Shown piece after piece: positions 28,551-48,841 of a stretch of DNA of 64,000 nucleotides. The stretch is from Hydrogenimonas cancrithermarum (GTDB lineage: Bacteria > Campylobacterota > Campylobacteria > Campylobacterales > Hydrogenimonadaceae). Within the stretch, counting starts at the first letter, position 1, and every line of letters begins with the position of its first letter. The notes beneath the pieces are model-generated. The model saw nothing but the letters and a program-made list of their open reading frames with translations. It did not search any database and was not told where the DNA came from. The DNA lies in assembly GCF_030296055.1 (NCBI RefSeq), contig NZ_AP027370.1, positions 2,096,501 to 2,160,500 of the forward strand. Direction: 5' to 3'. A program made the translations under genes and the position numbers.

Positions 28551-28581
28551 ACTCTTTCCTTTGGGGTGAATAATATGAGCG

Positions 28582-30375: not shown

Positions 30376-30413
30376 GGTAGAACCGGTAAAACCGGTGTCC
30401 GGAGGCTCGGCTT

Positions 30414-31583: not shown

Positions 31584-31669
31584 TGTGGTTGTTTCCTTTC
31601 AAAGATTTTTTTCGGTTTGATTTTGGTTCATCAGGCATTCCGCCCGTCAGGGCGTCTGCCACGGAAGGG

Positions 31670-31726
31670 GCTGGCTTCGGTGGCACAGTGCCCAGTGTAG
31701 GGCGGCGGGCTTTGCCCGACGGCCCT
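31670..31726. repeat. Structured spacer element B (pstS-porin 2)
   Basis: Contains a hairpin with CGGGC-TTT-GCCCG core and outer AGGGC/GCCCT pairing, preceded by GCACAGTGCCC and GTGTAG. Similar in order to element A in the pstA-pstB spacer. Between pstS and the porin it could reduce read-through, keeping PstS in excess. Confidence 0.45.
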
Positions 31727-31731
31727 GTATT

Positions 31732-32727: not shown

Positions 32728-32766
32728 TCTGTCTCCTTGCGTTGAATCTCTGGTTCTGCCAGTGAG

Positions 32767-32830
32767 ATTATAGAATGTCACGGATACAATTCGGTTACAG
32801 TTGGTATAATGACCGTTACCAAACCGTTAC
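32767..32830 (-). promoter_or_regulatory. Tandem Pho-box promoter of pstS
   Basis: Minus strand, proximal box GTAAC-N6-GTATC, ten bases, then TATAAT (32767-32772). A second box GTAAC-N6-GTAAC lies further upstream (32815-32830), so the half-sites start at 32783, 32794, 32815 and 32826, i.e. 11, 21 and 11 bases apart and all on one helix face. The outer box also lies upstream of phoU and could affect it. Confidence 0.75.
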
Positions 32831-32877
32831 CGAATCGGATTAGACTACGCTCTATATTGATGTCTAAAAGGAAGGGA

Positions 32878-33549: not shown

Positions 33550-34217
33550 TGGCACTGATCGCGATCATCGAAGACGAGCAGGATCTGCTCGATCTTTTGG
33601 AGTATCACCTGCAGAAAGATGGGTATGAGACATTCGCCGCCATTTCGGTCAAACCGATCGAAAAACTACTGGAGGAGGAGACCCCGGACCTGATGATCGT
33701 CGACCGAAACCTGCCGGGGGTGGAGGGCAGCGAATTTGTCCACTCACTCAGGGAACGAGGCATCGACGTTCCCGTGATTTTTTTGACGGCGAAAGTGGCC
33801 GAACACGAAATAGAAGAGGGGTTCTTGCGCGGTGGGGACGACTACGTGACCAAACCCTTCAACGTCAAGGAGCTGATGCATCGCGTCCGTGCCGTACTGC
33901 GCCGCAGCAAGCCCGAAGAGAACGAGACCGTGACATACCGAGACATTACCATCAAACCCAAAAGCTACGAAGTTTTTGTCGCGGGGCGGAAAATCGATCT
34001 GACCCGGCTCGAGTTCAAACTTCTGCTCGAACTGGTGACACACAAAAACCTGGTTCTCAGCCGTGACCAGCTTCTGGAGCGGGTATGGGGCGACGAGGGG
34101 GAGTATCAGGACCGTACCGTCAACGTCGCGGTCAACCGTCTCAAAGAGAAGATCGACCCCGACAAGAGCAAAAACTATATAAAATCGATCCGCGGAGTGG
34201 GGTACCAGGTGTGCTGA
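33549..34217 (+). CDS. phoB: PhoB-type response regulator
   Basis: OmpR/PhoB-class transcription factor of 222 residues, probably activating the Pho-box promoters of this region. Receiver with EDE pocket, phospho-acceptor Asp52 (MIVDRNLPG), and K in DYVTKPFNVKEL. The winged-helix domain has LTRLEFKLLLELV, RDQLLERVWG and RTVNVAVNRLKEKI. The start ATG overlaps the phoU stop, and the kinase start overlaps its own end, forming a tight phoU-phoB-phoR operon. Its identity as the phosphate regulator rests on context. Confidence 0.9.
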   Translation: MALIAIIEDEQDLLDLLEYHLQKDGYETFAAISVKPIEKLLEEETPDLMIVDRNLPGVEGSEFVHSLRERGIDVPVIFLTAKVAEHEIEEGFLRGGDDYVTKPFNVKELMHRVRAVLRRSKPEENETVTYRDITIKPKSYEVFVAGRKIDLTRLEFKLLLELVTHKNLVLSRDQLLERVWGDEGEYQDRTVNVAVNRLKEKIDPDKSKNYIKSIRGVGYQVC

Positions 34218-35653
34218 AACGTCATTTCAAACTTCCGCAAATCTTTTTTATAAACTTTTTCCTTCTTCTGTTCGGGACGCTTATTATCGCGTCGTTTATC
34301 GTCTACTATTCGATCCAGCAAATCGAAGTAAAACAGTTCACCAATCAGCTCAGGAGCGAGATCGCCTACGTGCGGGCCATGCTCGACGAGGGGAAATCGC
34401 TGGAAGCGGCGGCGGCCGAAATGGGGGAGATCATGGGACGCCCACTTCGCGTGACGCTGATTTCAATGGAGGGAAGACCTCTTTTCGACAATGAAGCCGA
34501 TGTGAACACGATGGAGAATCATGCGAACCGTCCGGAAGTGATGGCGGCGAGGCGGAGGGGTTTCGGTACGGCGGTTCGCTATTCCGAAACGGTCAAAAAC
34601 GACCGTATCTACGTGGCGAAAAAAATAGTCTGGAACGGGAAACCGGCCATTTTGCGTCTTTCGGTCTCGCTGGAAACGATCATGTTCGACTTCAGGATGC
34701 TCTGGTTTCGGCTCGCCTCGGTTTTTCTGGCGGCGTTGGTGATAGGGTATCTCATCAGCCGGGCACTTCAGCGTCGTATCGATGAAGAGCTTGGAAAACT
34801 GACCGACTATCTCAAGGCGATAGCCGACAAAAACTATCAGGCAAATTTCAGTGCCGGTTTCTCGGAAGAGTTCACGACGATCGCGATATTGCTCAAAAAA
34901 CTGGCCAGGCGGCTCGAGAAGAACGAGAAGAAGAAACGCAAATACAATGCGAAACTACGTTTTATCAGCAAACAGCGCAACGACATGATCTCGGCCATCA
35001 GCCACGAGTTCAAAAATCCGGTCGCTGCGATTATGGGATATACCGAAACGCTTCTGGACGATGATGAACTTCCCAAGCCCATTCGGAGGAAATTTCTCGA
35101 GAGAATCGAGCAGAATGCCAGACGTATTACCCAAATGATTGACCGTCTCAGTTTTATGACCCGGATGGAGAGCAGTGAAATCAAACCTCAGATGAGCGAT
35201 TTCGACTTTGAAAAAGTGGTACTCGATGCGGTTCATGCGCTCGAACGGAAATATGCGGGGAGAGAGATCGTCGTCGAGGGAGAACCGGTCACGATTCATG
35301 CGGACAAGACGATGATGGAGATGGCGGTCATCAACCTGATCGATAACGCCTTGAAGTACTCCGAGGATGAGGTGAGAATCATATTGAATGAAAATGAGTT
35401 CTGCATCGTCGACAAAGGCCAGGGGATACCGGAAAAGGAGCTTGAATCGATCACCAAAAAATTCTACCGTATCGAGAAAAACAGCTGGGACAACTCGATG
35501 GGGCTCGGCCTCGCGATCGTAAAGTACATTTTGAAACTCCATCGAAGCGATTTGGTGATCACTTCGGAAGTGGGTAGAGGAACGATCATCTGCTTTTCTA
35601 TTCCTTCCGTTTGTATAATCAAAAAAAATGAAGGCTCTACCCAGTCACACTGA
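34211..35653 (+). CDS. phoR: Membrane histidine kinase, PhoR-like
   Basis: 480 residues starting with GTG at 34211, overlapping the end of phoB by 7 bases. Two membrane spans (about 12-36 and 155-178) bound a periplasmic domain of about 120 residues, larger than in E. coli PhoR, which has almost none; it may sense a signal directly. Then a HAMP-like linker, HisKA with AISHEFKNP (His265), and HATPase with NLIDNALKYSED, DKGQGIPEKE and MGLGLAIVKYILKLH. By operon it is the phosphate kinase; other ligands are possible. Confidence 0.88.
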   Translation: MLKRHFKLPQIFFINFFLLLFGTLIIASFIVYYSIQQIEVKQFTNQLRSEIAYVRAMLDEGKSLEAAAAEMGEIMGRPLRVTLISMEGRPLFDNEADVNTMENHANRPEVMAARRRGFGTAVRYSETVKNDRIYVAKKIVWNGKPAILRLSVSLETIMFDFRMLWFRLASVFLAALVIGYLISRALQRRIDEELGKLTDYLKAIADKNYQANFSAGFSEEFTTIAILLKKLARRLEKNEKKKRKYNAKLRFISKQRNDMISAISHEFKNPVAAIMGYTETLLDDDELPKPIRRKFLERIEQNARRITQMIDRLSFMTRMESSEIKPQMSDFDFEKVVLDAVHALERKYAGREIVVEGEPVTIHADKTMMEMAVINLIDNALKYSEDEVRIILNENEFCIVDKGQGIPEKELESITKKFYRIEKNSWDNSMGLGLAIVKYILKLHRSDLVITSEVGRGTIICFSIPSVCIIKKNEGSTQSH

Positions 35654-35892: not shown

Positions 35893-36531
35893 ATGAAGCT
35901 CGGCTTTTTGGTAGACCTGGCGCTTTGCATGGGATGTAAAGGGTGTGAGGTCTCTTGTAAAGTGGAAAATGAAGTTCCGCTCAGTATGTGGCGCCTGCGG
36001 GTTAAGTATGTTGATGTGGGAACGTTCCCGGAAACGAAGCGTACTTTTACGCCGCTGCGCTGTAACCACTGCGAAAACGCACCGTGCGAGCGAATCTGTC
36101 CGGTCAGTGCACTGCACTATCTTGAAAACGGTATCGTGAATGTCGACAAAGAGCGCTGTATCGGCTGTGCGGGCTGTGTCATGGCATGCCCCTACGGTGC
36201 AATCTATATCGACCCGGAGACCAATACGGCCGACAAGTGCACCTACTGTGCCCACCGTGTCGCGGGAGGCATGATGCCGGCATGTGTCGTTGCATGTCCT
36301 GTCGAAGCGAATATCTTCGGTGACCTCGATGATCCGACCAGCAATATCAGCATGTATATCATGGAGCATCAGGGCAATGTCAAGGTTCGAAAGCCCGAGA
36401 AGAATACGCATCCGAAACATTTCTATACAAGTGGCGGCGAAGTGAACCTCAATCCGCTCGCAAGCAAGCGTGAAGAGGGATACAATCTCTTCAACAACAT
36501 TACGCATCTTAAACATGTAGGAGGTCACTAA
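35893..36531 (+). CDS. Molybdoenzyme electron-transfer subunit (four [4Fe-4S] ferredoxin)
   Basis: 212 residues from ATG 35893 (CAGGAGGAG upstream, an excellent ribosome site). Four cysteine groups of the DMSO-reductase B-subunit type: CMGCKGCEVSC, CNHCENAPCERICP, CIGCAGCVMACP, and CTYC with a later C-x3-CP. It has no signal peptide of its own, so it would be carried out by the Tat signal of the large subunit. It passes electrons between the NrfD quinol subunit and the Mo subunit. First gene of a long operon; the stop is 1 base from the next start. Confidence 0.93.
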   Translation: MKLGFLVDLALCMGCKGCEVSCKVENEVPLSMWRLRVKYVDVGTFPETKRTFTPLRCNHCENAPCERICPVSALHYLENGIVNVDKERCIGCAGCVMACPYGAIYIDPETNTADKCTYCAHRVAGGMMPACVVACPVEANIFGDLDDPTSNISMYIMEHQGNVKVRKPEKNTHPKHFYTSGGEVNLNPLASKREEGYNLFNNITHLKHVGGH

Positions 36532-36532
36532 G

Positions 36533-37432
36533 ATGGTTGAACATACTACCGCCGCGACCGATGCAATCGTAACGCTCGACGTCGCGCTCCCCGGAATCGT
36601 ATGGGGTTGGATGATTACACTCAACATGTGGGCGAAGAGTATCGGAACGGGCGTCGTACTGATCGGTGTCTATCTTTTGAAAAAATACGGAGACCGTGTC
36701 GCGAGCGTCAAAACAATGATGCCGGTGATCTCTTTCATTTTCCTGAATATTTTCCTGCTCTTCACACTGCTGGATCTTCACCAGCCGTTTAGAATGTGGC
36801 ATATCTTCTTCTATCCGCACTGGACTTCCGCCATTACCGTTGGCGCATGGTTGGCGACGATCTTTACGGGTATCATCTTTGTCATGGCCGCCGGAAAAAT
36901 TCTGAACAAGATCAACGAAGAACAGTACAACAAGCTGATGTGGGCAGCCTTTGTTTTTGCGATTCCTGTGACGCTCTATACTGCGACGATCATGGGTGAA
37001 GCCTCCGCGCGCGAATTATGGCAGACACCGACCGAACTTCTTCAGATGGCTCTTGCGGCGTTTATCGGCGGTTCCGCGACCTATCTGATTCTCGGAGTCG
37101 GAGATAGAAACGTTAAACGCGATTTGGCCATTGTGTTGGCTGTAAGTGCGACACTCTCGTTCATTGTCTATATGGGAGAGTATTATTTTGGTGCGATGAA
37201 AGCCGAAGAGGTTGCTGCGACGATCGCATTTGTCAAGGATGGTGGAGCGTATCACACCATGTTCTGGCTCGGACAGGTGATGGGGTACATCGTGCCGGTG
37301 GCACTTGTCATTTTTGCACTTCGGACACAGTCAAACAGTCTTCTCGCGCTCGCTTCCGTACTGGCCCTGGCAGGCCTTTGGATCGCCAAGCATGTCTGGC
37401 TCGTGATTCCGCAACTGTTGAACCTTAGTTGA
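36533..37432 (+). CDS. NrfD/PsrC-type membrane quinol subunit
   Basis: 299 residues with about eight transmembrane spans, typical of the NrfD/PsrC family that exchanges electrons with menaquinone. Family-like segments: GIVWGWMITLNMWAKSIGTG in the first span, HIFFYPHWTSAITVGAW and GEASARELWQTPTELLQMAL. It forms with the upstream ferredoxin and the downstream Mo protein a standard three-part complex, arranged B-C-A. The direction (quinol oxidation for reduction of a substrate, or the reverse) is not shown by sequence. Confidence 0.9.
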   Translation: MVEHTTAATDAIVTLDVALPGIVWGWMITLNMWAKSIGTGVVLIGVYLLKKYGDRVASVKTMMPVISFIFLNIFLLFTLLDLHQPFRMWHIFFYPHWTSAITVGAWLATIFTGIIFVMAAGKILNKINEEQYNKLMWAAFVFAIPVTLYTATIMGEASARELWQTPTELLQMALAAFIGGSATYLILGVGDRNVKRDLAIVLAVSATLSFIVYMGEYYFGAMKAEEVAATIAFVKDGGAYHTMFWLGQVMGYIVPVALVIFALRTQSNSLLALASVLALAGLWIAKHVWLVIPQLLNLS

Positions 37433-37451
37433 TTGAGTAGGAGAGAATAAT

Positions 37452-40400
37452 ATGATCAATGAAAATAGACGAACATTTTTAAAAGGCGCCGCGTTTACCG
37501 TTGCTGGTGCGACACTGGCCACTGGTGTATTCGAAAGTGTGGCAGAAGCTTCCAAAGAAGTGGTAACAGAGTTTACCGATACGCCTGAGAGTCTCGATTT
37601 CTACCCTCCACTCGAAAAGTGGGACAGCTTCCGTGAACTCGACGGAGATGATTGGAAACGTGGGGGTATCGACAGAAAAGGTGTTCGAAGCGAAGACAAT
37701 CCTGATGGTATTTTAGTCCATGACTACACGATCGTTCCATGCGTCTGCTCCAACTGTGAAGCGGGATGCGGCCTGACAGCTTGGGTCGACAAAAAGACGA
37801 TGACAGTAAGAAAGTACATGGGCAACCCCCTTCACAGCGGAAGCCGGGGACGAAACTGTGCAAAAGGGTATGCGGTCGAAAGCCAGATGTACGATCCGGA
37901 TCGCATTCCTTTCCCGATCAAACGTGCTCCGGGCTCCAAACGCGGTGAAGGCAAATGGGTCCGTATCAGCTGGGATCAGGCACTGAAAGAGATCGGGAAA
38001 AAGATGCATGATACGCTCAAAAGTGGTGACGAAATGAGCAAAAAGCTCATTATGTACCATGTCGGCCGCCCGAATGAAAATGGATTTTCCGGCCGTGTTC
38101 CACACACAATGGGATTGGATGGTTTCGACAGCCATACCAACATCTGTTCCGCAGGTGCACGGGAAGGTTCGATTCAATGGGCCAATGATGACCGAAACTC
38201 TCCAGATTGGGCCAATGCAAAACTGATATTCCTTCAGTCTTCCCATGCAGCGGATGCAGGGCACTACTTCCAGCAGTCTGCCGGGCTCATCGCCGATGCC
38301 CGCAAACGGGGTGCCAAAATGATCGTGATGGACCCGCGCCTGAGTAACTCGGCTGGTATCGCTGATCTTTGGTTGCCGGTGTGGCCGGGAACCGAGACGG
38401 CACTTTATCTCTATCTTGCCAACCGTGTTTTGAACGAAAAAGGCAAAAATGGCGATGACCTGATCGATCACAAGTTTGTCAAGAATTGGATCAATTGGGA
38501 TCGGCTGATGGCGAATAAAGAGTATCTGAAATTCATGGTTACAAAAGGGTATATCTCCAAAATGCCAGAAGACGAGAGCTATGAGAGTTTCATCGATGTG
38601 ATGAAAGAGCTCTACGCACCCTATACCAAGGAGTTCGTTGTCAAAGAGTGTAAACTCGAAGGACAGGAATATAAGCTGGACAAACTCTTTGAAATGTTCA
38701 TAGACGCAGGTCCACGGGTAGCCACCTATCTATGGCGTGCCGGTCCAATCGCCCATCGTGGCGGTTGGATGATCACCCGTGCCGGTTTTCTTCCATTGGC
38801 ACTCCGTGGTGCCCTTGCCGGAGATGTTGGTGGTGTCAGCTGGCACCATTGGCATGAAATTTCTGTTGGAGGCAAAGGAGACAAAGCTACTGTGGCCGGA
38901 AAGAAGCCACCGAAAGTCGATGTCTGGAATGAGCTGGCATGGCCCCCGGAGTATCCACTCAGTACCTATGAAATGAGTATGTTACTTCCCCATCTTCTGA
39001 TGGACGAAGAGTGGCAGAACAAATGGCGTGCCCGTGGTCTGAACGTTCCGACGAAACTTTCCGTTTGGATTCCGCGCATGTACAATCCGGTCTGGATTAA
39101 CCCGGACGGTTTCCGATGGATCGAGTGCCTCAAAGACGAGAGCAAAATGGAGATGACGCTGAACCTTTCGCCAACCTGGTCCGAGACCAACTGGTATTGC
39201 GACTATGTCCTGCCTGTTGGATTGGCAGGAGAACGTCACGACCAGCAGTCCGCACCGACCAAACCTGAGCGCTGGACTGCGTTCCGTCAGCCGGTATTGC
39301 GTGTTGCGATGGAAAAGATGGGATGGAAACCGAAAGTACCGTATCGTGGCACCCTCGAAGCGCATATGAAAGCGGGCCTGGGTGAAGTGTGGGAAGAGAA
39401 TGAATTCTTCGCCGAACTGCTCTGCCTCCATGTGGATCCGGACGGCAGCCTGGGGGTTCGCCAGTATTGGGAATCCGCGAAACATCCGGGACAGCCTGTC
39501 ACTGTCAAAGAGTATTACGATGCGGCTTTCAGCCTTCTTCCAAAACTTAAGAAGGCGGCCCATGCAGCATATCCTGGAAGTGAATATCCTTGCTACGAGT
39601 TCATGCGTGATAGAGGTGCGTGGACCGAGACGACGAATGTCTATCGACCGCAAGAAGAAACACTTGAATTCGACGGTACGTATTACCACGCCCACGGTCA
39701 CAAATATCATGCTGACGAAGTGGAAAGAGATCGGTTCGGTGTGCTGTGGGTCACCGACCATGAAGGACGCCGCCGCAGTATCGGTGTAGAAATAGAAGGC
39801 AAACTCTATGAAGGGTTCCATACGCCCGACAAGAAACTCGATCTCTTCTGTGAGTGGCTGATCGACTGGAAGTGGCCGGAGTATGCACTGCCAATCTACC
39901 CGCGCAATGCCCGTGAATACGACAAGATGATCCATATCGTTTCACAAGTGCACCACCGGTATATGAACGGTGAAAACGAATTTGCACTTAACACGGTATT
40001 CCGTTTGCCTTACAATATTCACACCCGTTCCGTAAACTCCAAACATTTGATGGAAATCAGCCAGAACCACAACCCGGTCTGGATCTATACTAAAGATGCC
40101 GAGCGTATGGGAATTAAGCGTGGCGATGCGGTAAAAGTTCGCATCGTTGATACCGTTAGCGGTCTGGAGAGTGGCTATTTCATCGCGATGGCGGTCCCGA
40201 CGGAAGGCACGATGCCGGGTGTTCTCGCATGCAGCCACCATGCTGGTCGTTGGAAACTAAAAAATGCGGTTGACATTCCTGGCTTCAAGCATGCGCTCGG
40301 TGTTATGGGTGTCGGTGCTCCACTGTACGAGATGACGATGGATGGAAAAGTGGGGACTTTGAAACCTAAAGAGGGAATCGAAGAGGGGATGAAATCCCGT

Positions 40401-40745
40401 CCGAAAACATGGCAATTCAAAGAGTTCAACAAAGATCTTGACAATATCTGGTGGGATGGGTTGAGCGGCTCATGGCAAAATGCTGTGGCACCGGTCCATC
40501 CGGATCCGATCGCTGGTAACCATGCTTGGCATCAGAAGGTTATCCTTGAAAAGGCGGAAAAGGATGACCAAATCGGTGATATTTATGTCAACTATGAGAA
40601 CAATTTCAAAACCTACAAGGCCTGGAGAGATGAATTGACACGCCCTTTGACGAGTGAAGATACGGAACGTCGTCCTTACTGGATCAAACGGCCGGTCGTA
40701 CCTTTGAGCAAGAAAGCTTACGAATTCAAGATTAAAGATCTTTAA
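37452..40745 (+). CDS. Tat-exported molybdopterin oxidoreductase, large catalytic subunit
   Basis: 1097 residues. N-terminal twin-arginine signal (NRRTFLKGAAF). Then the [4Fe-4S] motif C-x2-C-x3-C (CSNCEAGCG) and a later C in GRNCAKG, the bis-MGD binding core, the segment THTNICSAGAREG where the Mo ligand region would fall (Cys or Ser candidates), MDPRLSNSAGIADLWLPVWPG, and a C-terminal molybdopterin dinucleotide domain. It is much longer than PsrA/PhsA (about 750) and nearer in size to TtrA, SrdA or archaeal sulfur reductases. Substrate unknown; sulfur, polysulfide, tetrathionate or a metalloid oxyanion are candidates. RBS AGGAGAG upstream. A hairpin follows the stop. Confidence 0.92.
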   Translation: MINENRRTFLKGAAFTVAGATLATGVFESVAEASKEVVTEFTDTPESLDFYPPLEKWDSFRELDGDDWKRGGIDRKGVRSEDNPDGILVHDYTIVPCVCSNCEAGCGLTAWVDKKTMTVRKYMGNPLHSGSRGRNCAKGYAVESQMYDPDRIPFPIKRAPGSKRGEGKWVRISWDQALKEIGKKMHDTLKSGDEMSKKLIMYHVGRPNENGFSGRVPHTMGLDGFDSHTNICSAGAREGSIQWANDDRNSPDWANAKLIFLQSSHAADAGHYFQQSAGLIADARKRGAKMIVMDPRLSNSAGIADLWLPVWPGTETALYLYLANRVLNEKGKNGDDLIDHKFVKNWINWDRLMANKEYLKFMVTKGYISKMPEDESYESFIDVMKELYAPYTKEFVVKECKLEGQEYKLDKLFEMFIDAGPRVATYLWRAGPIAHRGGWMITRAGFLPLALRGALAGDVGGVSWHHWHEISVGGKGDKATVAGKKPPKVDVWNELAWPPEYPLSTYEMSMLLPHLLMDEEWQNKWRARGLNVPTKLSVWIPRMYNPVWINPDGFRWIECLKDESKMEMTLNLSPTWSETNWYCDYVLPVGLAGERHDQQSAPTKPERWTAFRQPVLRVAMEKMGWKPKVPYRGTLEAHMKAGLGEVWEENEFFAELLCLHVDPDGSLGVRQYWESAKHPGQPVTVKEYYDAAFSLLPKLKKAAHAAYPGSEYPCYEFMRDRGAWTETTNVYRPQEETLEFDGTYYHAHGHKYHADEVERDRFGVLWVTDHEGRRRSIGVEIEGKLYEGFHTPDKKLDLFCEWLIDWKWPEYALPIYPRNAREYDKMIHIVSQVHHRYMNGENEFALNTVFRLPYNIHTRSVNSKHLMEISQNHNPVWIYTKDAERMGIKRGDAVKVRIVDTVSGLESGYFIAMAVPTEGTMPGVLACSHHAGRWKLKNAVDIPGFKHALGVMGVGAPLYEMTMDGKVGTLKPKEGIEEGMKSRPKTWQFKEFNKDLDNIWWDGLSGSWQNAVAPVHPDPIAGNHAWHQKVILEKAEKDDQIGDIYVNYENNFKTYKAWRDELTRPLTSEDTERRPYWIKRPVVPLSKKAYEFKIKDL

Positions 40746-40768
40746 TTTGCGTTAATGTTTCATTGCAA

Positions 40769-40799
40769 GCGGGGCGTAATGCCCCGCACGATATAATTT
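40769..40799 (+). terminator. Hairpin after the Mo subunit
   Basis: GCGGGGC-GTAAT-GCCCCGC, a perfect 7-bp GC stem, 24 bases after the stop; a T-rich stretch follows after ACGATATAA. Perhaps a partial terminator that reduces expression of the accessory genes downstream. Confidence 0.6.
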
Positions 40800-40802
40800 T
40801 TT

Positions 40803-40855
40803 GAAGTAAGAAGTAAGAAGGAAGTTTTTCTCTCTTACTTCTCACTTCTCGCTTC
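40803..40855. repeat. Low-complexity inverted repeat (GAAGTAA/TTACTTC)
   Basis: Arms made of repeated GAAGTAA units and their complement pair imperfectly over about 22 bases around a TTTTTCTCTC loop. It stands directly after the terminator and before the chaperone gene. Confidence 0.55.
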
Positions 40856-40880
40856 CCACTCCTCACTGAAAAGGTACTTT

Positions 40881-41531
40881 ATGAACGACGTTCTGACCAA
40901 ACAACTTGCCCGGGTCAATCTTTACGCGCTGGTCTCGCGAATTATGATGAAAGAGGTTGACGAAGAGTTTCTGGAGAAGTTCGAAGCAGATGAGATGATT
41001 CTCTCTTTTTTTCCTAACTACCAAGGATGGGAGAAACCAAAAGAACTGTCACACAAAAATCTTCTCGAACAATTTTTAAATGTCGATTTCACCAATCTTT
41101 TCGTTTTGCATTTGATTCCTTACGAATCCTTCTATTTTCGGGATGATCAAATGTTAGAAACCGGCGGGGACAATCCAGTCGTCCAGATTTACAACGAATA
41201 CGATTTTCGTGTTCAATTGGATAAAGCGCGTACCGTCAGCCCCGATCATATAGGAATAGAGCTGGAGTTCATGTATATGCTTGCAAGTTCTGAATACAAG
41301 GCGCTCGAAAACAAGGATTACGACGCTGCATGTCAGATTGCGAGGATCCAGAGAGATTTCCTGCGCGATCATCTGCTGCAGTGGGCACCGATGTTTCTGC
41401 AGAATGTCAAGGCCGAAGCGGGGACGCCTTTCTATTTCGACGCCGCATCGCTGACACTTGAGTTCATGCTGAGCGACTATGAGTATCTGAATGAGCTGAT
41501 CACTGAAGAGGGTTGTAACTACACGGTATGA
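40881..41531 (+). CDS. TorD/DmsD-like molybdoenzyme chaperone
   Basis: All-helical protein of 216 residues with TorD-family hallmarks: ESFYFRDDQML in the middle and FLRDHLLQWAPMFLQNVK followed by the C-terminal TLEFM helix. Such chaperones hold the twin-arginine apoprotein until the cofactor is inserted. It lies directly after the Tat-dependent Mo subunit, which is its obvious client. ATG at 40881 with GAAAAGG upstream. Its stop overlaps the start of the next gene (ATGA). Confidence 0.88.
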   Translation: MNDVLTKQLARVNLYALVSRIMMKEVDEEFLEKFEADEMILSFFPNYQGWEKPKELSHKNLLEQFLNVDFTNLFVLHLIPYESFYFRDDQMLETGGDNPVVQIYNEYDFRVQLDKARTVSPDHIGIELEFMYMLASSEYKALENKDYDAACQIARIQRDFLRDHLLQWAPMFLQNVKAEAGTPFYFDAASLTLEFMLSDYEYLNELITEEGCNYTV

Positions 41532-42691
41532 GTACGCTGATGTTCGATGCCGCACGGTGCGTGCGGACGGTGACAAAATTTTCGGAGTGTACCAAATGTG
41601 TCGAAGTCTGTCCGGTCGATACGCTTCATATCGCCCAGAACAACCTTCCCGCATTTACCCCTTCTGTCTGTGTCGATTGTGGCGGATGCCTTGGGGTCTG
41701 TCCCTCCGAAGCGTTTAAACTCAAAGACTTCGATACAACCGAATTCTTTTTCGAGTTTGCCGCGTCGGATGAGACACTTGTTTCATGCCGCGTCAATGTA
41801 CCGTGCATCATGGCACTCAGTGTCGAGCATTTGATCTCGCTTGCACTGCTCAAGAACGATCCGATGGTGCTGGACATCGGCCATTGCGCTAACTGCCCTT
41901 ACAAAGATCCGCTCTATGCCAATATCGTCAAGAGTGTCGACGAGGCGAACTACATCCTCGATGCGTGTGAAAGCGGGAAAACGATCCGTCTCGAGGATGT
42001 CGGGGCCGAAGAGGAAAATGCCCCTTTGGATATCGATCAACATGACCGCCGTGCCTTTTTGGAGCGTCTTTCGCTCAAAGGGGTGATTAAATCGAAAAAA
42101 GAGTTCGACAACGCGGTCGCTTCGATCAGCGACGAGGCGAAACTGCACAGTGTCGATCTTACCGATGTCGCAAAGATTCGCCAGAAAGAGCTGCCCGATA
42201 AACGAAAAATTCTCTTTACTGCGTTAAAGCGTGCCCCCAAACCTTCGGTGTACCATACGATTGCCGAAGAGGATATTTCGTTCGCGTCACAGAAATTCAT
42301 CGATATGGAAACCTGTACCAACTGCCAGATGTGCTATCGCATCTGTCCAACCGGAGCGCTTAGTTCAGATACGAAAAACAGCAAAATCTATTTCGACGCG
42401 ATGATGTGTATCAAGTGCCGTGCCTGTCACGATACCTGCGAACCCGACAGTCTCAAGCTGCAGCCGACGTTCGAGCTGAAAGAGTTTTTCGAGCCGACAC
42501 AGCGTCTGCTGGCATCCTTCAAACTGGTGCGCTGCGATGAATGCGGCATTCATTTTACGTCACTTCAGGGGGAAAGAACATGCTCGAGATGTGCCGTTGA
42601 AGAGGAAGAGGCACTCGATCTGTGGGGACTGGAAGAGCAACCCGACGGAACGGTGGCATTCAAAAAAGAAGAAGAGGATTCACCATCATGA
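41528..42691 (+). CDS. Multi-cluster iron-sulfur protein with C-terminal zinc-ribbon-like knuckle
   Basis: 387 residues, no signal peptide or membrane span, so cytoplasmic. Two ferredoxin-like motifs in the N-terminal 70 residues (ECTKCVEVCPVDTL and CVDCGGCLGVCPSEAF), a middle region with paired cysteines (CANCPYKDP), two more motifs near 260-310 (CTNCQMCYRICPTGAL, CIKCRACHDTCEP), and CDEC/CSRC near the C-terminus that resemble a zinc ribbon. It may supply electrons for, or help assemble, the Mo enzyme. It overlaps both neighbours by ATGA junctions, so three genes are translationally coupled. Confidence 0.85.
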   Translation: MSTLMFDAARCVRTVTKFSECTKCVEVCPVDTLHIAQNNLPAFTPSVCVDCGGCLGVCPSEAFKLKDFDTTEFFFEFAASDETLVSCRVNVPCIMALSVEHLISLALLKNDPMVLDIGHCANCPYKDPLYANIVKSVDEANYILDACESGKTIRLEDVGAEEENAPLDIDQHDRRAFLERLSLKGVIKSKKEFDNAVASISDEAKLHSVDLTDVAKIRQKELPDKRKILFTALKRAPKPSVYHTIAEEDISFASQKFIDMETCTNCQMCYRICPTGALSSDTKNSKIYFDAMMCIKCRACHDTCEPDSLKLQPTFELKEFFEPTQRLLASFKLVRCDECGIHFTSLQGERTCSRCAVEEEEALDLWGLEEQPDGTVAFKKEEEDSPS

Positions 42692-43545
42692 TCGACGAAG
42701 GAATTTTGGCCAAAGAGAGCCGGCTGATTGCACTGTATGGGATGAATGCACAGACGTCACCGTTTCTGAAGGTACTCAATACCACATTCAAGCATCTCGG
42801 TCTCAACGACTTCGCCATCGGTCTCAACATCAAGCCCGAAGATTTCGCCTATATGGTCAAAGGGATGCCGAGCTCGAAAGTTACCATGGCACTCTATGAA
42901 CCGGAGTACCAAGAAGTTGCGGTACCGCTGCTCGATATCAAGGATCAATGCATCGAACGGAGCGGTCTATGCGACGGTGCCTATGCCGATGAGGGGAAAC
43001 TGGTCGGAACGTGTTTTACGCCGCAGAGTTTCGAGAACATGGTGGCGTGTGAAGGGATACGGTTTGAAGGAAAACGTATACTCCTGCTTGGTGGCGGAGC
43101 GATCGCTCGAGCCCTTCTTCCGCTGCTTGGCGTGCTTGGTGCATCGTTTGTCGAAGTTGCCGACGGCAGCGTCGAACGTGCGGCCGAAGCGCTCGAAATC
43201 GCGAAGCCTTCGTTCGCGGCTGTCGAGACCGATGTCGCATGGTTCCAAAACGGCATGGAGGTCGATGTCACCAACTATGACATCATCATAAACGCCGTTG
43301 ATATCTATGCACACAGCGACAAAAAGCTTATAGTCCCAAAAGGTGAAAACAGGAAGCTCGTTCTGATCGACTTTGTACGAAGTTCAAGCAGTTTCGACAC
43401 CTTGGCGAATGAACTCGCTTGCCGGAAACTCGGCAGTTATCAGTGGATGACAGCTTCAGCCATGAGTGTCGCGAAAGCATGGCTCGGAGTCGATATCGAT
43501 TGTGACAGTTATGAAACAATTATGAAAAACTTGGGAGAGATTTGA
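42688..43545 (+). CDS. Divergent shikimate-dehydrogenase (AroE)-like protein
   Basis: 285 residues from ATG 42688, which overlaps the preceding stop. The fold layout is that of AroE: an N-terminal substrate-like domain (LYGMNAQTSPFLKVLNTTF, about 14-33), then a Rossmann unit with RILLLGGGAIARALLPLLG, then IIINAVDIYA and a C-terminal helix. The catalytic Lys/Asp motif of true AroE (NVTVPHK) is not present, where it reads KGMPSSKVTMAL. Together with its location inside a molybdoenzyme operon, this argues that it is not a shikimate-pathway enzyme. Function unknown: possibly a reductase or binding protein needed for maturation. Confidence 0.75.
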   Translation: MIDEGILAKESRLIALYGMNAQTSPFLKVLNTTFKHLGLNDFAIGLNIKPEDFAYMVKGMPSSKVTMALYEPEYQEVAVPLLDIKDQCIERSGLCDGAYADEGKLVGTCFTPQSFENMVACEGIRFEGKRILLLGGGAIARALLPLLGVLGASFVEVADGSVERAAEALEIAKPSFAAVETDVAWFQNGMEVDVTNYDIIINAVDIYAHSDKKLIVPKGENRKLVLIDFVRSSSSFDTLANELACRKLGSYQWMTASAMSVAKAWLGVDIDCDSYETIMKNLGEI

Positions 43546-43547
43546 AA

Positions 43548-43988
43548 ATGGAAGATTTGAGAAAAGAGTTCGAAAACTACATGGAAGACCGCTGCGTCAC
43601 GAGCGAATGCGAGACGGAAGAGGATTCATATGAATATCCCGACTATGTCGAAGCGATCAATGCGGAGCTCATGCCGCCGAGTAAAAGCGGGGTCTATATC
43701 AGCCGCTGGGATCTGAAGATGGTCGGGGATGCGATCGACGCTTCAATCGCGATGGATGCACGGGCACGCATGTACAAAATGCTGATGCGTTCGGTTCACG
43801 ACAAGGAAACGATGGGGCTTCTGCTGGGTGCTTTCTCATCTTTGATCGATGCCAAAATCGAGCCTTACAAAGAGATGATGAATGCCTATCCTGTTGTATC
43901 TCCAATTTTTCAGGAGAAAATCGACAAGGCAGAACGGGTCAAGGCCTATTTCGAAGAGGTGTTGAAGACCTATTTCCCGGAGGAGTAA
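43548..43988 (+). CDS. Unknown acidic protein of the molybdoenzyme operon
   Basis: 146 residues from ATG 43548 (GGGAGATTTG upstream); a TTG 6 bases earlier would overlap the previous stop. N-terminal 40 residues are acidic with two Cys (CVTSEC). The rest is helical (KMVGDAIDASIAMDARARMYKML, DKETMGLLLGAFSSLIDAKIEPYKEMM). I do not recognise a family; the helical profile would suit an adaptor or chaperone. It is the link between the Mo genes and the Bat genes, whose first product starts 3 bases after its stop. Confidence 0.75.
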   Translation: MEDLRKEFENYMEDRCVTSECETEEDSYEYPDYVEAINAELMPPSKSGVYISRWDLKMVGDAIDASIAMDARARMYKMLMRSVHDKETMGLLLGAFSSLIDAKIEPYKEMMNAYPVVSPIFQEKIDKAERVKAYFEEVLKTYFPEE

Positions 43989-43991
43989 AAG

Positions 43992-44990
43992 ATACATTTT
44001 ACATTCGAATACCCTTGGATTCTTTTTTTACTGCTTGTCATACCATGTTTTTGGCGTTGTCCTAGCGGTGTAGTTAAATTCTATTTTCCCCATATACAGA
44101 GGGTGCCTACATCCTCTCTGACATTTCAGATACAACCGCTTTTCCAGGCATTGCTCTATACACTTTTCATTACATCGTTGGCGTCTCCCATTGCATTCGA
44201 CAGGCTCCAGGCAAGTGCTCGAAGTGGACGGGATCTGGTACTTTCTATCGATACCAGCGGTTCAATGGGAGAGTCAGGATTTGACAGTGTGCATTCATCG
44301 AAACGAAAATATGATGCGGTTTTAGAGATCGTCGAACATTTTCTGGAAAATCGTTTCGATGACAATGTAGGTCTTGTTATGTTCGGTACTTTTGCCTATG
44401 CAGCCTCACCTGTAACCTACGATCTCAAAGCGCTTGAAGAGATTCTGAAGCTTACCGACGTGGGTATTGCAGGGCAGAGTACGGCGATCGGGGAGGGGAT
44501 CGACCAGGCTATTCGAACATTGCATTTCGGCTATGCGAAGGAGAAGGTGATCGTTTTGCTGACCGACGGCTTCCAGAACACCGGATCGGTTTCGGTGAAA
44601 GAGGCTGTCGAGAAAGCGAAGAGAGTGGGTGTGAAAATTTACACGATCGGCATCGGTAAAGCGGGCGATTTCGACAAAAACCTGCTCGAACGCATCGCCA
44701 CAGAAACAGGAGGACGTTTTTTCCCCGCAATGGATGCTTCTGGTCTCAAAGAAGTATTCGATATCATCGATAATCTGGAACCCAGTCCCATACGTTCGAA
44801 AAGCATGATCAATAGGAAAATGCTCTACGTCTATCCTCTCGTTTTCGGCATGATTTTGCTTGTTTTCGTCTTGAGTTTTAGAAATGGAAAGGGTGGTTTT
44901 TTTGGATGGAACACTTCTGCTACGGGAGAGTTTTTCACCAAGCTGCCACGCTTTCTCGATCTGTTCCATCGCAGAAAGAGAATGTCATGA
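43992..44990 (+). CDS. batA: BatA-like von Willebrand A membrane protein, probably with an AUA start
   Basis: vWA protein anchored in the inner membrane. The BatA-typical N-terminus (FTFEYPWILFLLLVIP) is encoded from 43995 on, but between the preceding in-frame TAA (43986) and the GTG at 44103 there is no ATG, GTG or TTG. GGAGG at 43979-43983 is 8 bases before an ATA at 43992, so AUA is the likely start, giving 332 residues, the normal length. Two spans lie near the N-terminus, MIDAS motif DTSGSMG, the TxxGxA-type loop QSTAIGEG and LTDG, and a C-terminal span (VYPLVFGMILLVFVLSF). A GTG start at 44103 would cut off the first span. Confidence 0.85.
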   Translation: MHFTFEYPWILFLLLVIPCFWRCPSGVVKFYFPHIQRVPTSSLTFQIQPLFQALLYTLFITSLASPIAFDRLQASARSGRDLVLSIDTSGSMGESGFDSVHSSKRKYDAVLEIVEHFLENRFDDNVGLVMFGTFAYAASPVTYDLKALEEILKLTDVGIAGQSTAIGEGIDQAIRTLHFGYAKEKVIVLLTDGFQNTGSVSVKEAVEKAKRVGVKIYTIGIGKAGDFDKNLLERIATETGGRFFPAMDASGLKEVFDIIDNLEPSPIRSKSMINRKMLYVYPLVFGMILLVFVLSFRNGKGGFFGWNTSATGEFFTKLPRFLDLFHRRKRMS

Positions 44991-46579
44991 CACTTCTGCA
45001 TCCCGTTTTTTTATGGCTGTTGATACCGCTTGCGCTTTTTGCGCTCGTGCGTTATCATCAGTATCATCTTGACACGCTGCCGTTTCGGTCCGAAATCGTG
45101 CTCGAAAACCGTCGGACGCCTTTGATGCGGCTGGCACCATTTATCGCATTGGCTTGGATGATTCTTTCGCTTGCGCGGCCAGTTGTCACAGAGAGCCGCG
45201 ATATTACGGCCCCCTCGCCGCAGACAGTCTATCTGGCTATCGACGCTTCACGTTCCATGCAGGCCCGTGACAGAGTTCCCGATCGTTACGAATTCGCCAA
45301 AACCGCCATCGAGAAACTCCTTTCCATCGATAACTCTCATCGGTTCGCACTCATCACTTTCACGAGCAATGCGCTGATACTCTCGCCACCCACATCCGAT
45401 CGTGAATTGATTCATGTGGCGCTGGAAAGTTTTAACCCCGATTATATTCTGACACACGGCACCTCTCTCGACGCGCTGATACGTTATGTTGCCCGATTCG
45501 GCGGAAACGAGCAAAAGCGTCTCGTCGTTTTCAGTGATGGTGGCGATGGTGAATACGATGCATCGCTGGTCGCGTTTGTCCGTTCGCACCGCATTCGTAT
45601 CTATGGTGTCGCCTGTGCTACCCGCAACGGTGCCAAAATTCCCGTGGATGAGGGTTGGCTTCACGACAAAGAAGGGCATCTTGTCATTTCCATGCAAAAT
45701 CCCGCACTTGAAAGGCTCAGCATCGAAAGCGGCGGGGAGACCGTTGACGAAAAAATGCCGGAAGTGGTGGCAGCCACACTGGCTGAACGTCTGGAGGACC
45801 CTATAACGTCCACCGCATCTGAACGGGTGCAATATCACGAATTTTTCTGGATACCGCTACTTCTCGGGATCCTCTTTTTCCTGGTGGGAACGCTTTCTCT
45901 ATCCGGTCTGAAGCGAATGTTGCGTCTACCGCTCGTTCTTCTTTTCGGTCTTCATCTGCAGGCGAGCATTCTGGATATCTATCGCCTCCATCGAGGGTAT
46001 GAGGCGTACAAGACAAAGAAATATCGGGAAGCGGAAGCAATTTTCAGGGAAATTTCGTATCTGCAGGAGGGTCGCTATGCGCTGGCCAACACACTCTACA
46101 GAGAGGGCGCCTACAAGAAGGCTGGCAGACTTTTCGCCTCGATCAAGGCAAAAAAACCCGCTGTCAAACGGCAGGTATGGTACAATCTCGGCAATTGCGC
46201 CGCGAAAATGGGCCATTACAAGAGTGCAGCTGACTATTATATCAAAGCGCTGCAGCTTGGTTACGATCCGGATGCCGTTCATAATCTTCAGTTGGTGCTT
46301 TTTTTGCAGGAAAAAATGGTAAGACAGATCGCACCCAAAGCTAACCGCCATGTCAAAGCGGTCAGTCGCAGTGGCACAGCGGATCAGAGCGAAAAAAGTG
46401 GCACGAAAAAAGGCGGAAATAGCCGAATGCAGCAGGGCAGCGGCAGCGATGCCGCGTCGAAAACGACGGTCGTCGGCCGTCGGCCGTCGGCGCAAGCGGC
46501 ATCGAAACGCCATCCGCTCGGATCGAGGGTTTATGAAATGATCAACAAAGGGTATATAAATGAAAAGAAACCCTGGTAG
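44987..46579 (+). CDS. BatB/BatC-like fusion: vWA domain plus TPR region
   Basis: 530 residues from ATG 44987 (ATGA overlap with batA). N-terminal spans (about 7-25 and 52-70), vWA domain with MIDAS DASRSMQ and FSDGGDG, another two hydrophobic segments (about 285-325), then TPR-like helices (YEAYKTKKYREAEAIF, YALANTLYREGAYKKAGRLF, YNLGNCAAKMGHYKSAADYY) and a charged Ser/Lys/Gly-rich tail. In other bacteria BatB and BatC are often separate or fused in this way. A role as scaffold for protein assembly at the membrane is usual for vWA-TPR proteins; the client is not known. Confidence 0.85.
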   Translation: MTLLHPVFLWLLIPLALFALVRYHQYHLDTLPFRSEIVLENRRTPLMRLAPFIALAWMILSLARPVVTESRDITAPSPQTVYLAIDASRSMQARDRVPDRYEFAKTAIEKLLSIDNSHRFALITFTSNALILSPPTSDRELIHVALESFNPDYILTHGTSLDALIRYVARFGGNEQKRLVVFSDGGDGEYDASLVAFVRSHRIRIYGVACATRNGAKIPVDEGWLHDKEGHLVISMQNPALERLSIESGGETVDEKMPEVVAATLAERLEDPITSTASERVQYHEFFWIPLLLGILFFLVGTLSLSGLKRMLRLPLVLLFGLHLQASILDIYRLHRGYEAYKTKKYREAEAIFREISYLQEGRYALANTLYREGAYKKAGRLFASIKAKKPAVKRQVWYNLGNCAAKMGHYKSAADYYIKALQLGYDPDAVHNLQLVLFLQEKMVRQIAPKANRHVKAVSRSGTADQSEKSGTKKGGNSRMQQGSGSDAASKTTVVGRRPSAQAASKRHPLGSRVYEMINKGYINEKKPW

Positions 46580-47705
46580 TAGGTTTCTGCTGATTCTTGC
46601 ATTGTTTGTCGTATCCCTTTGCGCAGACGAAGGATACCGCTATTCGATGCGGCTGAGCACAGAGAGTGCAACGGTGAAGGAGCCGTTTCTTTTTACCTTC
46701 AGTATCGAACAGCTCGATCGCAGTAAAGTGATGTTTTTTGATATTCGTCCGCATCAGAAAGGTTTTTTTTTCAAGCGGCTTGACAAGAATGTCGACGATA
46801 CTTTCCATCATCGCAAAGCTCTCTTTACCTATCTTGTCTACGCTTTGCAGCCATACGACGGCCCCCTGCGATTCGATTTGACCGTCAAGCAGACCAATGA
46901 CAAGCGTATCGAATTGAGTACGACCGGAGGGCGATACAATGTCAAGGATATCGAAACCACGGATCTTCATGAAACCCTCTCAACTCCAATCTTGCATATT
47001 ACCTCTATCCCGAAACAGGTTCCGCTCGTGGGAGAATTCCATATGCGGGTCTCGGTGGACAAAAGCTCGGTTTCCGCCCGAACCCCCGTCTATCTGAAGA
47101 TACACCTCGAGGGAATCGGTGCCATGCCCGAACCGTTCGATTTCACTCCCAAAATCGAGGGGGCCGAAATTTTCACCGATGATCCGCATGTGACACTTCG
47201 TTATTCGAAAGATGGCGTTCACTATGAGGCCACCTATCTCTATGCGTTGCTCAGTGATCGTTCTTTCACCGTTCCAGCCTACCGTCTACAGGCGTGGTCT
47301 TACAAAAAACGGAAATTCTATTCACTCGAAAGCACACCTTTGTCCGTCCAGGTCAAGACAGTGCCCATTCGACAGTTGGTAGATGAAAGGAATATGCCCC
47401 AAAGTGTTTTCGATATGTTCGAAGATACGAAAGAGTGGCTGATCTACCTGCTGGTATTTATGAGCGGGTATCTAAGTGCACTACTGATCACAAAACTGCG
47501 CGGGCGGAGGCGGCTGTCCGGTGCTTCGGACATATTTGCAAAAGAGGTTAGGCAAGCCAAAGATGCCCGTGCCCTGCTGACCCTGCTACTCCATAAAGAT
47601 GCCCAAACATACGCCTCTTTTATCACAGACCTCGAAAAAGCGGTATACAGGGGCGAAAATATTCCTTTCAAACAAATCAAGAAGGAGATACTGCGCCATG
47701 GTTAG
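46560..47705 (+). CDS. BatD-like membrane-anchored protein
   Basis: 381 residues, signal peptide (MKRNPGSRFLLILALFVVSLCA), a large periplasmic part with beta-sandwich-like repeats (YRYSMRLSTESATVKEPFLF, MRVSVDKSSVSARTPVYLKI), a membrane span near 298-316 (WLIYLLVFMSGYLSALLI), and a cytoplasmic helical tail. This is the BatD/oxygen-tolerance layout. Starts 20 bases inside the preceding gene, so translation is coupled. It completes the Bat set. The MoxR ATPase and DUF58 protein that usually lead such operons are absent here. Confidence 0.82.
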   Translation: MKRNPGSRFLLILALFVVSLCADEGYRYSMRLSTESATVKEPFLFTFSIEQLDRSKVMFFDIRPHQKGFFFKRLDKNVDDTFHHRKALFTYLVYALQPYDGPLRFDLTVKQTNDKRIELSTTGGRYNVKDIETTDLHETLSTPILHITSIPKQVPLVGEFHMRVSVDKSSVSARTPVYLKIHLEGIGAMPEPFDFTPKIEGAEIFTDDPHVTLRYSKDGVHYEATYLYALLSDRSFTVPAYRLQAWSYKKRKFYSLESTPLSVQVKTVPIRQLVDERNMPQSVFDMFEDTKEWLIYLLVFMSGYLSALLITKLRGRRRLSGASDIFAKEVRQAKDARALLTLLLHKDAQTYASFITDLEKAVYRGENIPFKQIKKEILRHG

Positions 47706-48057
47706 GTATATGTTTTTTCTGGCTCTCTTTGCCATATCTATTTCGGCTTCTTCGGAAGGAGAGCGGCTCTATATGTCCAAAGGATGTTATGGTTGCCACG
47801 GTACCTATGGTGAGGGGATCGGCGATTATCCGAAATTGGCGGGACGTGAAATAGACGAACTGGCAGACAGACTTCATGCACTTCAGCGGGGCATTGGACA
47901 TACTTCGAAACGCGATATGATGATTCCGTTCGCCAAATCCCTGCATGAGAGTGAGATCGAAGCGATCGCGAAATACCTGAGTTTCCAGCAACCAGATATA
48001 TCGGAAGACGAGTCTTTGGAAACTCCTGAAGAGATTCTCGGTGGTTCAGATATGTGA
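47698..48057 (+). CDS. Periplasmic monoheme cytochrome c
   Basis: 119 residues from ATG 47698 (GAAGGAGAT upstream), overlapping batD by 8 bases. Signal peptide (VRYMFFLALFAISISAS), heme site CYGCHG at about residue 34, and a likely Met ligand in MMIPF, followed by the C-terminal helix SEIEAIAKYLS of class I cytochromes. It ends the operon and could be an electron donor or acceptor for the molybdoenzyme complex in the periplasm. Confidence 0.9.
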   Translation: MVRYMFFLALFAISISASSEGERLYMSKGCYGCHGTYGEGIGDYPKLAGREIDELADRLHALQRGIGHTSKRDMMIPFAKSLHESEIEAIAKYLSFQQPDISEDESLETPEEILGGSDM

Positions 48058-48397: not shown

Positions 48398-48841
48398 TCA
48401 ACGCTTGAGAACCACTTCGCCATAGACGGTGTCGAGTGGATAACCCTGCTCGACCCATTCACGTATACCGCCTTTGAGTGAATAGACGTTGGTGTACCCC
48501 ATCTCTTGCATCGTTTTGGCTGCGAGCTTTCCGCGCTTGCCGGTACAGCAGTAGATGACGATGCGTGCATTTTTGTCCGGTATCGCTTTTTTAACCTTGA
48601 ATTCGAGATAACCGCGTGTGATCTGGACGAGATTGAGGGTGAAAATCTCGCCATGGCCGATTTGATCGGGTTCCCGGATATCCAGGATATAGAGATCGTC
48701 GACTTCATCGGTGATCAGCTTGTAGAGTTCTTTGGGCTCCATCTCCCTGACCGGAATCTCTTTCGGGCATGGGCAGAGTTTTGTCTCCTGTGCGGCGACA
48801 AAAGTGAGCGAAAGCATCATTAGCAGAAGAAGTTTTTTCAT
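48398..48841 (-). CDS. Periplasmic rhodanese-like protein
   Basis: 147 residues with signal peptide (MKKLLLLMMLSLTFVAAQ). Single rhodanese domain; active-site loop CTGKRG preceded by another Cys (YCCTGKRG), and the family end YTNVYSLKGGIREWVEQGYP. It may carry sulfane sulfur in the periplasm, as Sud-type proteins do for polysulfide reductases. It converges with the cytochrome end of the molybdoenzyme operon, which makes a sulfur substrate there more attractive but does not prove it. AAAAAAGG upstream of the ATG. Confidence 0.88.
   Translation of the reverse strand: MKKLLLLMMLSLTFVAAQETKLCPCPKEIPVREMEPKELYKLITDEVDDLYILDIREPDQIGHGEIFTLNLVQITRGYLEFKVKKAIPDKNARIVIYCCTGKRGKLAAKTMQEMGYTNVYSLKGGIREWVEQGYPLDTVYGEVVLKR

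Follow-up and report, generated by a model that had tools for sequence, protein, structure and literature searches.

A Tat-exported molybdoenzyme clade of chemolithotrophic Campylobacterota and its conserved set of candidate maturation factors

The PsrABC and PhsABC enzymes of Wolinella, Thermus and Salmonella are among the described systems closest to the one reported here: a Mo-bis(pyranopterin guanine dinucleotide) (Mo-bisPGD) subunit with a Cys ligand and an FS0 cluster is exported by the twin-arginine translocation (Tat) pathway and is combined with a four-cluster B subunit and a membrane anchor. SoeABC shares the general architecture and the sulfur-oxidation setting (general knowledge and PMC6397845), and the MOLY cluster (MolyABC), a marker of sulfur disproportionation, is defined without a transmembrane anchor (PMC12998232). 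Separate from these, MoxR-Bat operons contain BatA, BatB-TPR and a BatD-like gene in this order. Here, we describe an operon from a 64,000-nucleotide stretch (the window, to which all coordinates refer) of the 2.38 Mb genome of Hydrogenimonas cancrithermarum (Campylobacterota; contig NZ_AP027370.1, positions 2,096,501 to 2,160,500). It encodes an Fe-S subunit (FeS-B), an NrfD-type anchor and a large catalytic subunit, here called MolA and together MolABC, and continues with genes for putative maturation factors, Bat proteins and a cytochrome c. The eleven genes listed in the initial annotation of this DNA were all recovered by open reading frame (ORF) calls and profile searches, at 35893-48057 on the plus strand:

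35893..36531, plus strand: Fe-S electron-transfer subunit FeS-B, four 4Fe-4S type, TtrB/ArrB/NrfC-like, 212 aa (Fer4_11, E 7.6e-23)
36533..37432, plus strand: NrfD/PsrC-type quinone-reactive membrane anchor, 299 aa (PF03916, 57.8 bits, cut-off 25.8)
37452..40745, plus strand: MolA, Mo-bisPGD catalytic subunit, 1097 aa, Tat motif NRRTFLK (PF00384, PF04879 and PF01568 over cut-offs)
40881..41531, plus strand: TorD/DmsD-family chaperone, 216 aa (PF02613, 65.5 bits; TorD NF003442, 56.5 bits)
41528..42691, plus strand: polyFe, ferredoxin-like protein of the cytoplasm, 387 aa, carrying four cluster motifs and, at its C-terminus, a CxxC pair that resembles a zinc ribbon (Fer4 at 20-64 and 257-312)
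42688..43545, plus strand: AroE-like protein, shikimate-dehydrogenase fold (AroE models 42-48 bits, under cut-offs)
43542..43988, plus strand: all-helical protein, about 148 aa (start TTG 43542 or ATG 43548)
43992..44990, plus strand: BatA-type VWA membrane protein, 332 aa (VWA, 77.9 bits; NCBIfam BatA, 155 bits, under the 380 cut-off)
44987..46579, plus strand: BatB-type VWA protein fused to a BatC-like TPR part (VWA_2, 52.7 bits, and TPR; BatC TPR model at 334-478)
46560..47705, plus strand: BatD-like protein, 381 aa (position and similarity to a gene of another Bat cluster)
47698..48057, plus strand: small periplasmic mono-haem cytochrome c (Cytochrom_C, 37.5 bits)

Most neighbours overlap by 4-20 nt, as the overlapping or near-touching ends described earlier imply. 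Overlaps of 4 nt connect TorD with polyFe, polyFe with the AroE-like gene, the latter with the helical gene, and BatA with BatB, while BatB and BatD overlap by 20 nt and BatD and the cytochrome c gene by 8 nt. Only 1 nt separates FeS-B (end 36531) from NrfD (start 36533) and 19 nt separate NrfD (end 37432) from MolA (start 37452); the widest gap of the operon, 135 nt, lies between MolA (end 40745) and TorD (start 40881). Pfam and NCBIfam models support the Fe-S subunit, NrfD, the Mo subunit, TorD, the ferredoxin-like protein, the two VWA proteins, the TPR part and the cytochrome c. FeS-B matches TtrB best among NCBIfam models (205 bits, under the 416 cut-off) and is 77-99% identical to its counterparts in the loci of relatives. 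With a Mo-bisPGD subunit carrying FS0, a four-cluster Fe-S subunit and a membrane anchor, MolABC has the features that define a complex iron-sulfur molybdoenzyme of the DMSO reductase family.

Like PsrA and PhsA, MolA has FS0 cysteines (Cys99, Cys102, Cys106 and Cys136), and in an alignment to reference enzymes its Cys232 falls on the Mo-ligand Cys of PsrA, PhsA and ArxA. These five cysteines and Arg6-Arg7 are invariant across the MolA ortholog alignment (A1), and an RRxFL Tat motif is present at the N-terminus in all ten Campylobacterota rows checked. The protein differs from the PsrA and PhsA rows used in being about 300 aa longer (1097 versus 758-818 aa), which bears out the length difference noted initially, and in its large accessory set. 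Its best NCBIfam score, to PhsA, is 125.8 bits against a cut-off of 694, followed by TtrA (75.2 against 1750) and ArrA (65.5 against 1600). An assignment to TtrA, PhsA, ArrA or another named family was therefore rejected, all scores lying far under the curated cut-offs. The 17 members of the ortholog alignment match the same broad NCBIfam families, and none points to one named group.

A phylogeny of the large subunit, which the initial annotation had proposed as a check, places MolA outside the Psr/Phs and Arx clades. In a 32-row tree that holds no TtrA, ArrA or SoeA row and in which the ArxA references are labelled from operon context, MolA and five cytoplasmic relatives form one clade (support 100/100), apart from PsrA/PhsA, ArxA and DmsA. 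Next to this clade stands a pair formed by an enzyme of Azoarcus sp. KH32C and a further enzyme of Sulfurovum indicum. Approximately unbiased (AU) tests, with groupings chosen after the tree had been seen, reject a grouping of MolA with PsrA/PhsA (p 4e-8, or 5e-5 once the cytoplasmic rows are included) and likewise with ArxA (p 1e-120, or 0.0025 once these rows are included). One hit, H100, was considered as a SoeA reference and rejected because soeBC do not lie beside it, so that SoeA is not in the tree; SoeABC also differs from MolA, which has a Tat motif, in being cytoplasmic. The AlphaFold model of MolA (mean predicted local distance difference test score, pLDDT, 63) was too poor for a fold search and was not used. 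Judged by sequence, MolA is thus a separate clade of a known kind of enzyme, one that annotation already labels Psr.

The sister clade comprises enzymes of Thermomicrobium roseum, of plasmid pRHL3 of Rhodococcus jostii RHA1 and of haloarchaeal plasmids, which align with MolA over more than 90% of its length at 36-39% identity. They share the motif SHTN(I/V)CS with MolA and mostly also the C-terminal HPDPxSGxHxWH, but they are cytoplasmic, lack an N-terminal Tat signal and have the B subunit and NrfD fused in one protein; in several of their loci, Mrp/MobA neighbours occur in place of TorD, polyFe and the AroE-like protein. Within the partly accessible literature, no paper clearly concerned the sister enzymes of Rhodococcus, Thermomicrobium or haloarchaea. 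The plasmid operon of Azoarcus sp. KH32C (L175:7245-15558) resembles the Hydrogenimonas operon in its B-C-A-TorD order and its homologous polyFe, and it also contains a rhodanese-like gene, but its A subunit is shorter (879 aa) and only 25.8% identical, and a HisA-like protein takes the place of the AroE-like protein. Here, too, a Tat molybdoenzyme is thus accompanied by a protein with the fold of a biosynthetic enzyme. In contrast to the MOLY cluster, NrfD lies here between the B and A subunits.

MolA was found in 85 of 397 sampled Campylobacterota genomes and in 18 of 68 genera, with one copy per genome; named loci belong to Hydrogenimonas, Nitratiruptor, Sulfurovum, Sulfurimonas and one metagenome-assembled genome labelled Sulfurospirillum. 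The order FeS-NrfD-MolA-TorD-polyFe-AroE-like-helical is kept in several families of chemolithotrophic Campylobacterota, and the recurrence of these first seven genes across families argues for more than a chance arrangement. The AroE-like and helical genes were found in at least 27 of about 40 loci of relatives. In some genomes, only FeS, NrfD and MolA remain together, with polyFe still encoded elsewhere; polyFe was present in all MolA genomes checked, even where unlinked, and absent from two MolA-negative genomes. A gene-neighbourhood search, also suggested initially, thus showed that the accessory genes remain linked in relatives and that linkage to Bat genes recurs. As the clade is separate and the accessories are linked, the combination named beforehand as speaking against a new system, a large subunit inside a well-characterised clade and accessory genes unlinked in all relatives, was not what emerged.

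The four accessory proteins encoded directly downstream of MolA would be expected to act in the cytoplasm, where maturation roles are proposed for them. The cysteines of polyFe are invariant in its alignment (A4) and common to the protein of the Azoarcus KH32C operon, and a polyFe paralog lies about 4 kb from another Mo enzyme of the Hydrogenimonas genome; both observations suggest that polyFe acts as a general helper of Mo enzymes. The AroE-like protein lacks the catalytic Lys and Asp of the true AroE of the same genome (ITVPHKE is replaced by VTMALYE and YNTD by CFTP). Outside Hydrogenimonas, its orthologs have 116-158 aa in most loci and 244-253 aa in three, and they mostly lack the NAD domain. 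The loss of the catalytic residues and the shortening of the orthologs make a scaffold more likely than a dehydrogenase. The helical protein matches none of the Pfam and NCBIfam models. Its orthologs fill a 29-row alignment (A2), and its structure is confidently modelled (pLDDT 88); a fold search with this model returned no match in the Protein Data Bank (PDB) at E <= 0.001.

The Bat genes and the cytochrome c gene had initially been counted as members of the operon like the others, but as obligate parts they do not hold up, since in most genomes they lie apart from MolA or were not found in its vicinity. In 14 of the 33 genomes having both genes, the nearest BatB lies within 20 kb of MolA, compared with about 0.7 genomes estimated for random placement in 2 Mb; these 14 belong to three families and show both relative orientations. 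In the other 19, Bat is unlinked to MolA or on another contig. This count, the two further Bat clusters of the Hydrogenimonas genome and the absence of a MoxR gene from the window (two strong copies lie elsewhere in the genome) would fit the view that the Bat and cytochrome genes are unrelated to the molybdoenzyme and merely share its transcript in Hydrogenimonas. We consider this explanation, which is compatible with every other reading of the enzyme, a possibility of somewhat less than even weight, because shared ancestry of one arrangement does not explain a linkage that recurs in three families in differing orientations, and because the Bat genes run into one another and come right after the helical gene. 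The linkage of Bat to MolA is real, but not obligate. The operon differs from MoxR-Bat operons in that MoxR is encoded elsewhere and the Bat genes are attached to a molybdoenzyme operon; in the Nitratiruptor-type loci L059 and L075, MoxR adjoins the Bat genes. The tandem VWA proteins match the VWA and BatA/BatC models, although with scores under the Leptospira-specific cut-offs. The gene called BatD is present as stated, but it matches no Pfam or NCBIfam model, and its label rests on its position and on its resemblance to the gene following BatB in another Bat cluster of the same genome (E 2.6e-18). In several families, homologs of the cytochrome c gene lie within the cluster or next to it; several Nitratiruptor-type loci have theirs on the other strand, placed between the MolA and TorD genes.

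The BatA gene appears to use an unusual start codon. Its first 37 codons in the window contain no ATG, GTG or TTG, and homology places the start at ATA 43992, behind GGAGGAG. Across the loci of nine Hydrogenimonas species, the homologous start is ATA in five, ATT in two, ATC in one and CTG in the ninth, with a GGAGG-type sequence just 5' of it in most. No locus has an ATG, GTG or TTG before codon 14 (a TTG in that case), and seven of the nine have none before codon 27; initiation at these codons would cost the protein some or all of its first membrane helix. The loci concerned are:

window 43970-44000; L051, L053, L054, L090, L091, L093, L095, L096: BatA, apparent non-canonical start

Non-canonical initiation is known from infC, which starts at AUU. 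By its sequence pattern, the BatA start looks like a conserved case resembling infC, and it might set a low dose of the Bat proteins.

A sulfur compound had been guessed as substrate because a rhodanese gene faces the end of the operon:

48398-48841, minus strand: rhodanese gene

The gene is real, but as a clue to the substrate it fails, since no rhodanese homolog was found in any of the 40 loci fetched from relatives. A sulfur compound is still the best guess, on the grounds of sox and DsrE genes and of the neighbourhoods in relatives. In genome G294, which we take to be Sulfurovum NBC37-1, soxXYZAB and genes for a metallo-beta-lactamase (MBL) hydrolase, two cytochrome-thioredoxin proteins, DsrE and a DUF302 protein lead on the same strand directly into the operon, and in five Sulfurovum-type genomes soxB lies within about 35 kb of MolA. 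SoxB and MolA co-occur with an odds ratio of 6.8 (p 8e-13, uncorrected for phylogeny), which is weak support in view of 39 exceptions. Among the MolA relatives from other phyla, all of them from plasmids, the Rhodococcus jostii homolog has DsrE, TusA and MBL hydrolases as neighbours and two haloarchaeal homologs have rhodanese and TauE/SafE. Moreover, Hydrogenimonas also encodes canonical PsrA, so that polysulfide reduction is already covered in this organism. The sulfur neighbourhoods and the additional presence of canonical PsrA favour a sulfur-compound oxidoreductase that works mainly in the oxidative direction, for which we see about even chances.

Several observations weigh against this assignment. 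Linkage to Sox is seen in Sulfurovum-type genomes only, a full-scoring SoxB is missing from 39 of the 85 MolA genomes, and in family f8 many genomes carry SoxB but no MolA. The cytoplasmic relatives that provide sulfur neighbourhoods are 36-39% identical to MolA and reside in another compartment; near one other Natrinema locus no sulfur gene was seen, and at the Thermomicrobium locus an adjacent 'metal-sensitive' regulator is the only possible sulfur hint. Finally, NBC37-1 reportedly respires sulfur, and a search of its genome did not find a canonical (PsrA3-type) PsrA. MolA could therefore be the sulfur reductase of this strain.

A rival proposal is that MolABC is a respiratory polysulfide or S0 reductase, fed by menaquinol with H2 as donor and merely diverged from the Wolinella type. 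It can draw on published names. In a study on Sulfurovum indicum ST-419, four PsrA proteins with key Cys at positions 171, 247, 183 and 195 are described, psrA1 to psrA4 have the locus tags RS08440, RS03620, RS06785 and RS07170, and psrA1B1C1 is given as the counterpart of PsrABC of Sulfurovum NBC37-1 (PMC10045233). Genome G256, taken as S. indicum on the match of Cys residues and relative locus positions, contains four corresponding enzymes with Cys at 171, 247, 183 and 194 (195 counting the first Met) at matching relative positions, and the Cys247 enzyme, which is MolA, sits at the place of psrA1. Because the order of Cys residues in the paper disagrees with its own numbering, it is the position of the locus tag that supports the label psrA1. 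The system is thus less novel than first claimed in that its enzyme already bears the names PsrABC and PsrA1, whereas no description was found of the conserved accessory set, whose genes are not mentioned in the accessible part of the S. indicum study (PMC10045233). The same source reports that none of the four PsrA has a Tat motif and that PsrA is cytoplasmic (PMC10045233). For MolA this statement appears to be wrong, since its S. indicum ORF starts with MTKVNNEQPAFVESRRTFLKG and has SRRTFLK at the N-terminus.

Besides these names, the Cys ligand shared with PsrA/PhsA and the missing PsrA3-type enzyme of NBC37-1 speak for a polysulfide reductase. Yet the AU tests reject a clade with PsrA/PhsA, genomes such as Hydrogenimonas possess canonical PsrA in addition, and the operon adjoins sox in Sulfurovum. 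In S. indicum, psrA1B1C1 was reported to be highly transcribed in both S0 reduction and nitrate reduction, with no significant change on S0, while the canonical psrA3B3C3 was induced 4-7 fold on S0 (PMC10045233). Such steady transcription is expected of an enzyme that is not specific to S0 respiration. We therefore regard a polysulfide reductase as doubtful. Still less probable is that MolA acts on another oxyanion or metalloid (tetrathionate, arsenic or selenium) and that its sulfur neighbourhood is incidental: although the Cys-type enzymes with B and NrfD-like partners include ArxA and TtrA as well (partly general knowledge) and the neighbours of the Azoarcus KH32C relative comprise arsenic genes and a PhnD/kinase/sigma-54 regulator set, the TtrA and ArrA scores and the AU test with ArxA speak against it, and arsenic genes do not stand out among the recurrent MolA neighbours.

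Two side observations concern PsrA itself. Hydrogenimonas has two copies of a canonical 803-aa Tat PsrA (G000:C1:1204142 and 1315159; L023 and L024) about 111 kb apart, which are apparently duplicated, as their Pfam scores are identical. Furthermore, the additional S. indicum enzyme in the tree (G256:C1:1452733, L184) is a Tat PhsA-like protein that groups with the Azoarcus enzyme and not with PsrA, and it fits none of the four PsrA of the published study.

The sequence itself shows the gene set, the Cys ligand, FS0, a Tat motif, an anchor, a clade of its own, conservation and linkage, whereas substrate, direction and the roles of all accessory proteins are proposals. We favour an oxidoreductase of the periplasm that acts on a sulfur compound, is linked to quinones and has a dedicated set of maturation proteins, a reading that as a whole has an evenly balanced chance of being right. 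FeS-B, NrfD and MolA would form a periplasm-facing complex, in which MolA is exported by Tat together with the ferredoxin-like B subunit and docks on the NrfD anchor. The menaquinone pool would exchange electrons with a substrate at the Cys-ligated Mo site. This substrate would most likely be an inorganic sulfur species, such as sulfane sulfur/polysulfide, thiosulfate or sulfite, and net oxidation feeding the quinone pool beside Sox and sulfide:quinone oxidoreductase (SQR) appears somewhat likelier than sulfur respiration, although the reaction may be reversible. TorD, polyFe, the presumably inactive AroE-like protein and the helical protein could constitute a cytoplasmic set that loads the cofactor and the Fe-S clusters before export. 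BatA, BatB-TPR and BatD, together with a MoxR ATPase encoded elsewhere, may serve as an assembly or repair device of the periplasm and membrane that was recruited to the MolA enzyme, and the cytochrome c may be an alternative electron partner.

Some further features surround the operon. A pho-regulon-like set (phosphate transporters, porins, PhoU, a response regulator and a histidine kinase, judged by eye) occupies 25468-35653 directly 5' of it; PstS/PhoU also adjoin the conserved block in some Nitratiruptor-type loci, perhaps reflecting an old gene order. On the other side, 48921-52250 (minus strand) encodes an envelope protein of 1109 aa that resembles AsmA/DUF748 and has an OmpA-like part at its C-terminus, likewise judged by eye. 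The stretch at about 4000-7100, AT-rich with 29-38% GC within a region of about 50% GC and adjoining hisD, contains a tyrosine-recombinase-like gene (4254-5459) and looks like a small mobile island.

A bolder and quite tentative proposal, rather unlikely in its full form, is that MolABC represents a separate class of sulfur-compound dehydrogenases. A cytoplasmic ancestor would have moved to the periplasm in Campylobacterota and gained maturation factors of its own: a polyferredoxin, a scaffold of AroE fold that has lost catalysis and is becoming shorter, a new helical protein and, for activating the Mo site or the Fe-S clusters once export is complete, a Bat/MoxR device.

Primary production at vents and in sulfidic waters owes much to Sulfurovum, Sulfurimonas, Nitratiruptor and Hydrogenimonas, whose zero-valent sulfur chemistry is poorly understood (PMC10045233, PMC9948710). 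MolA is among the most conserved respiratory molybdoenzymes of these producers, and its classification as a polysulfide reductase stems largely from annotation. The operon provides a limited number of candidate maturation factors that can be tested and bears on the question of whether a Bat/VWA system can serve a molybdoenzyme. If MolABC is indeed a periplasmic sulfur dehydrogenase, calls of 'sulfur respiration' made from the molA gene in metagenomes would be wrong.

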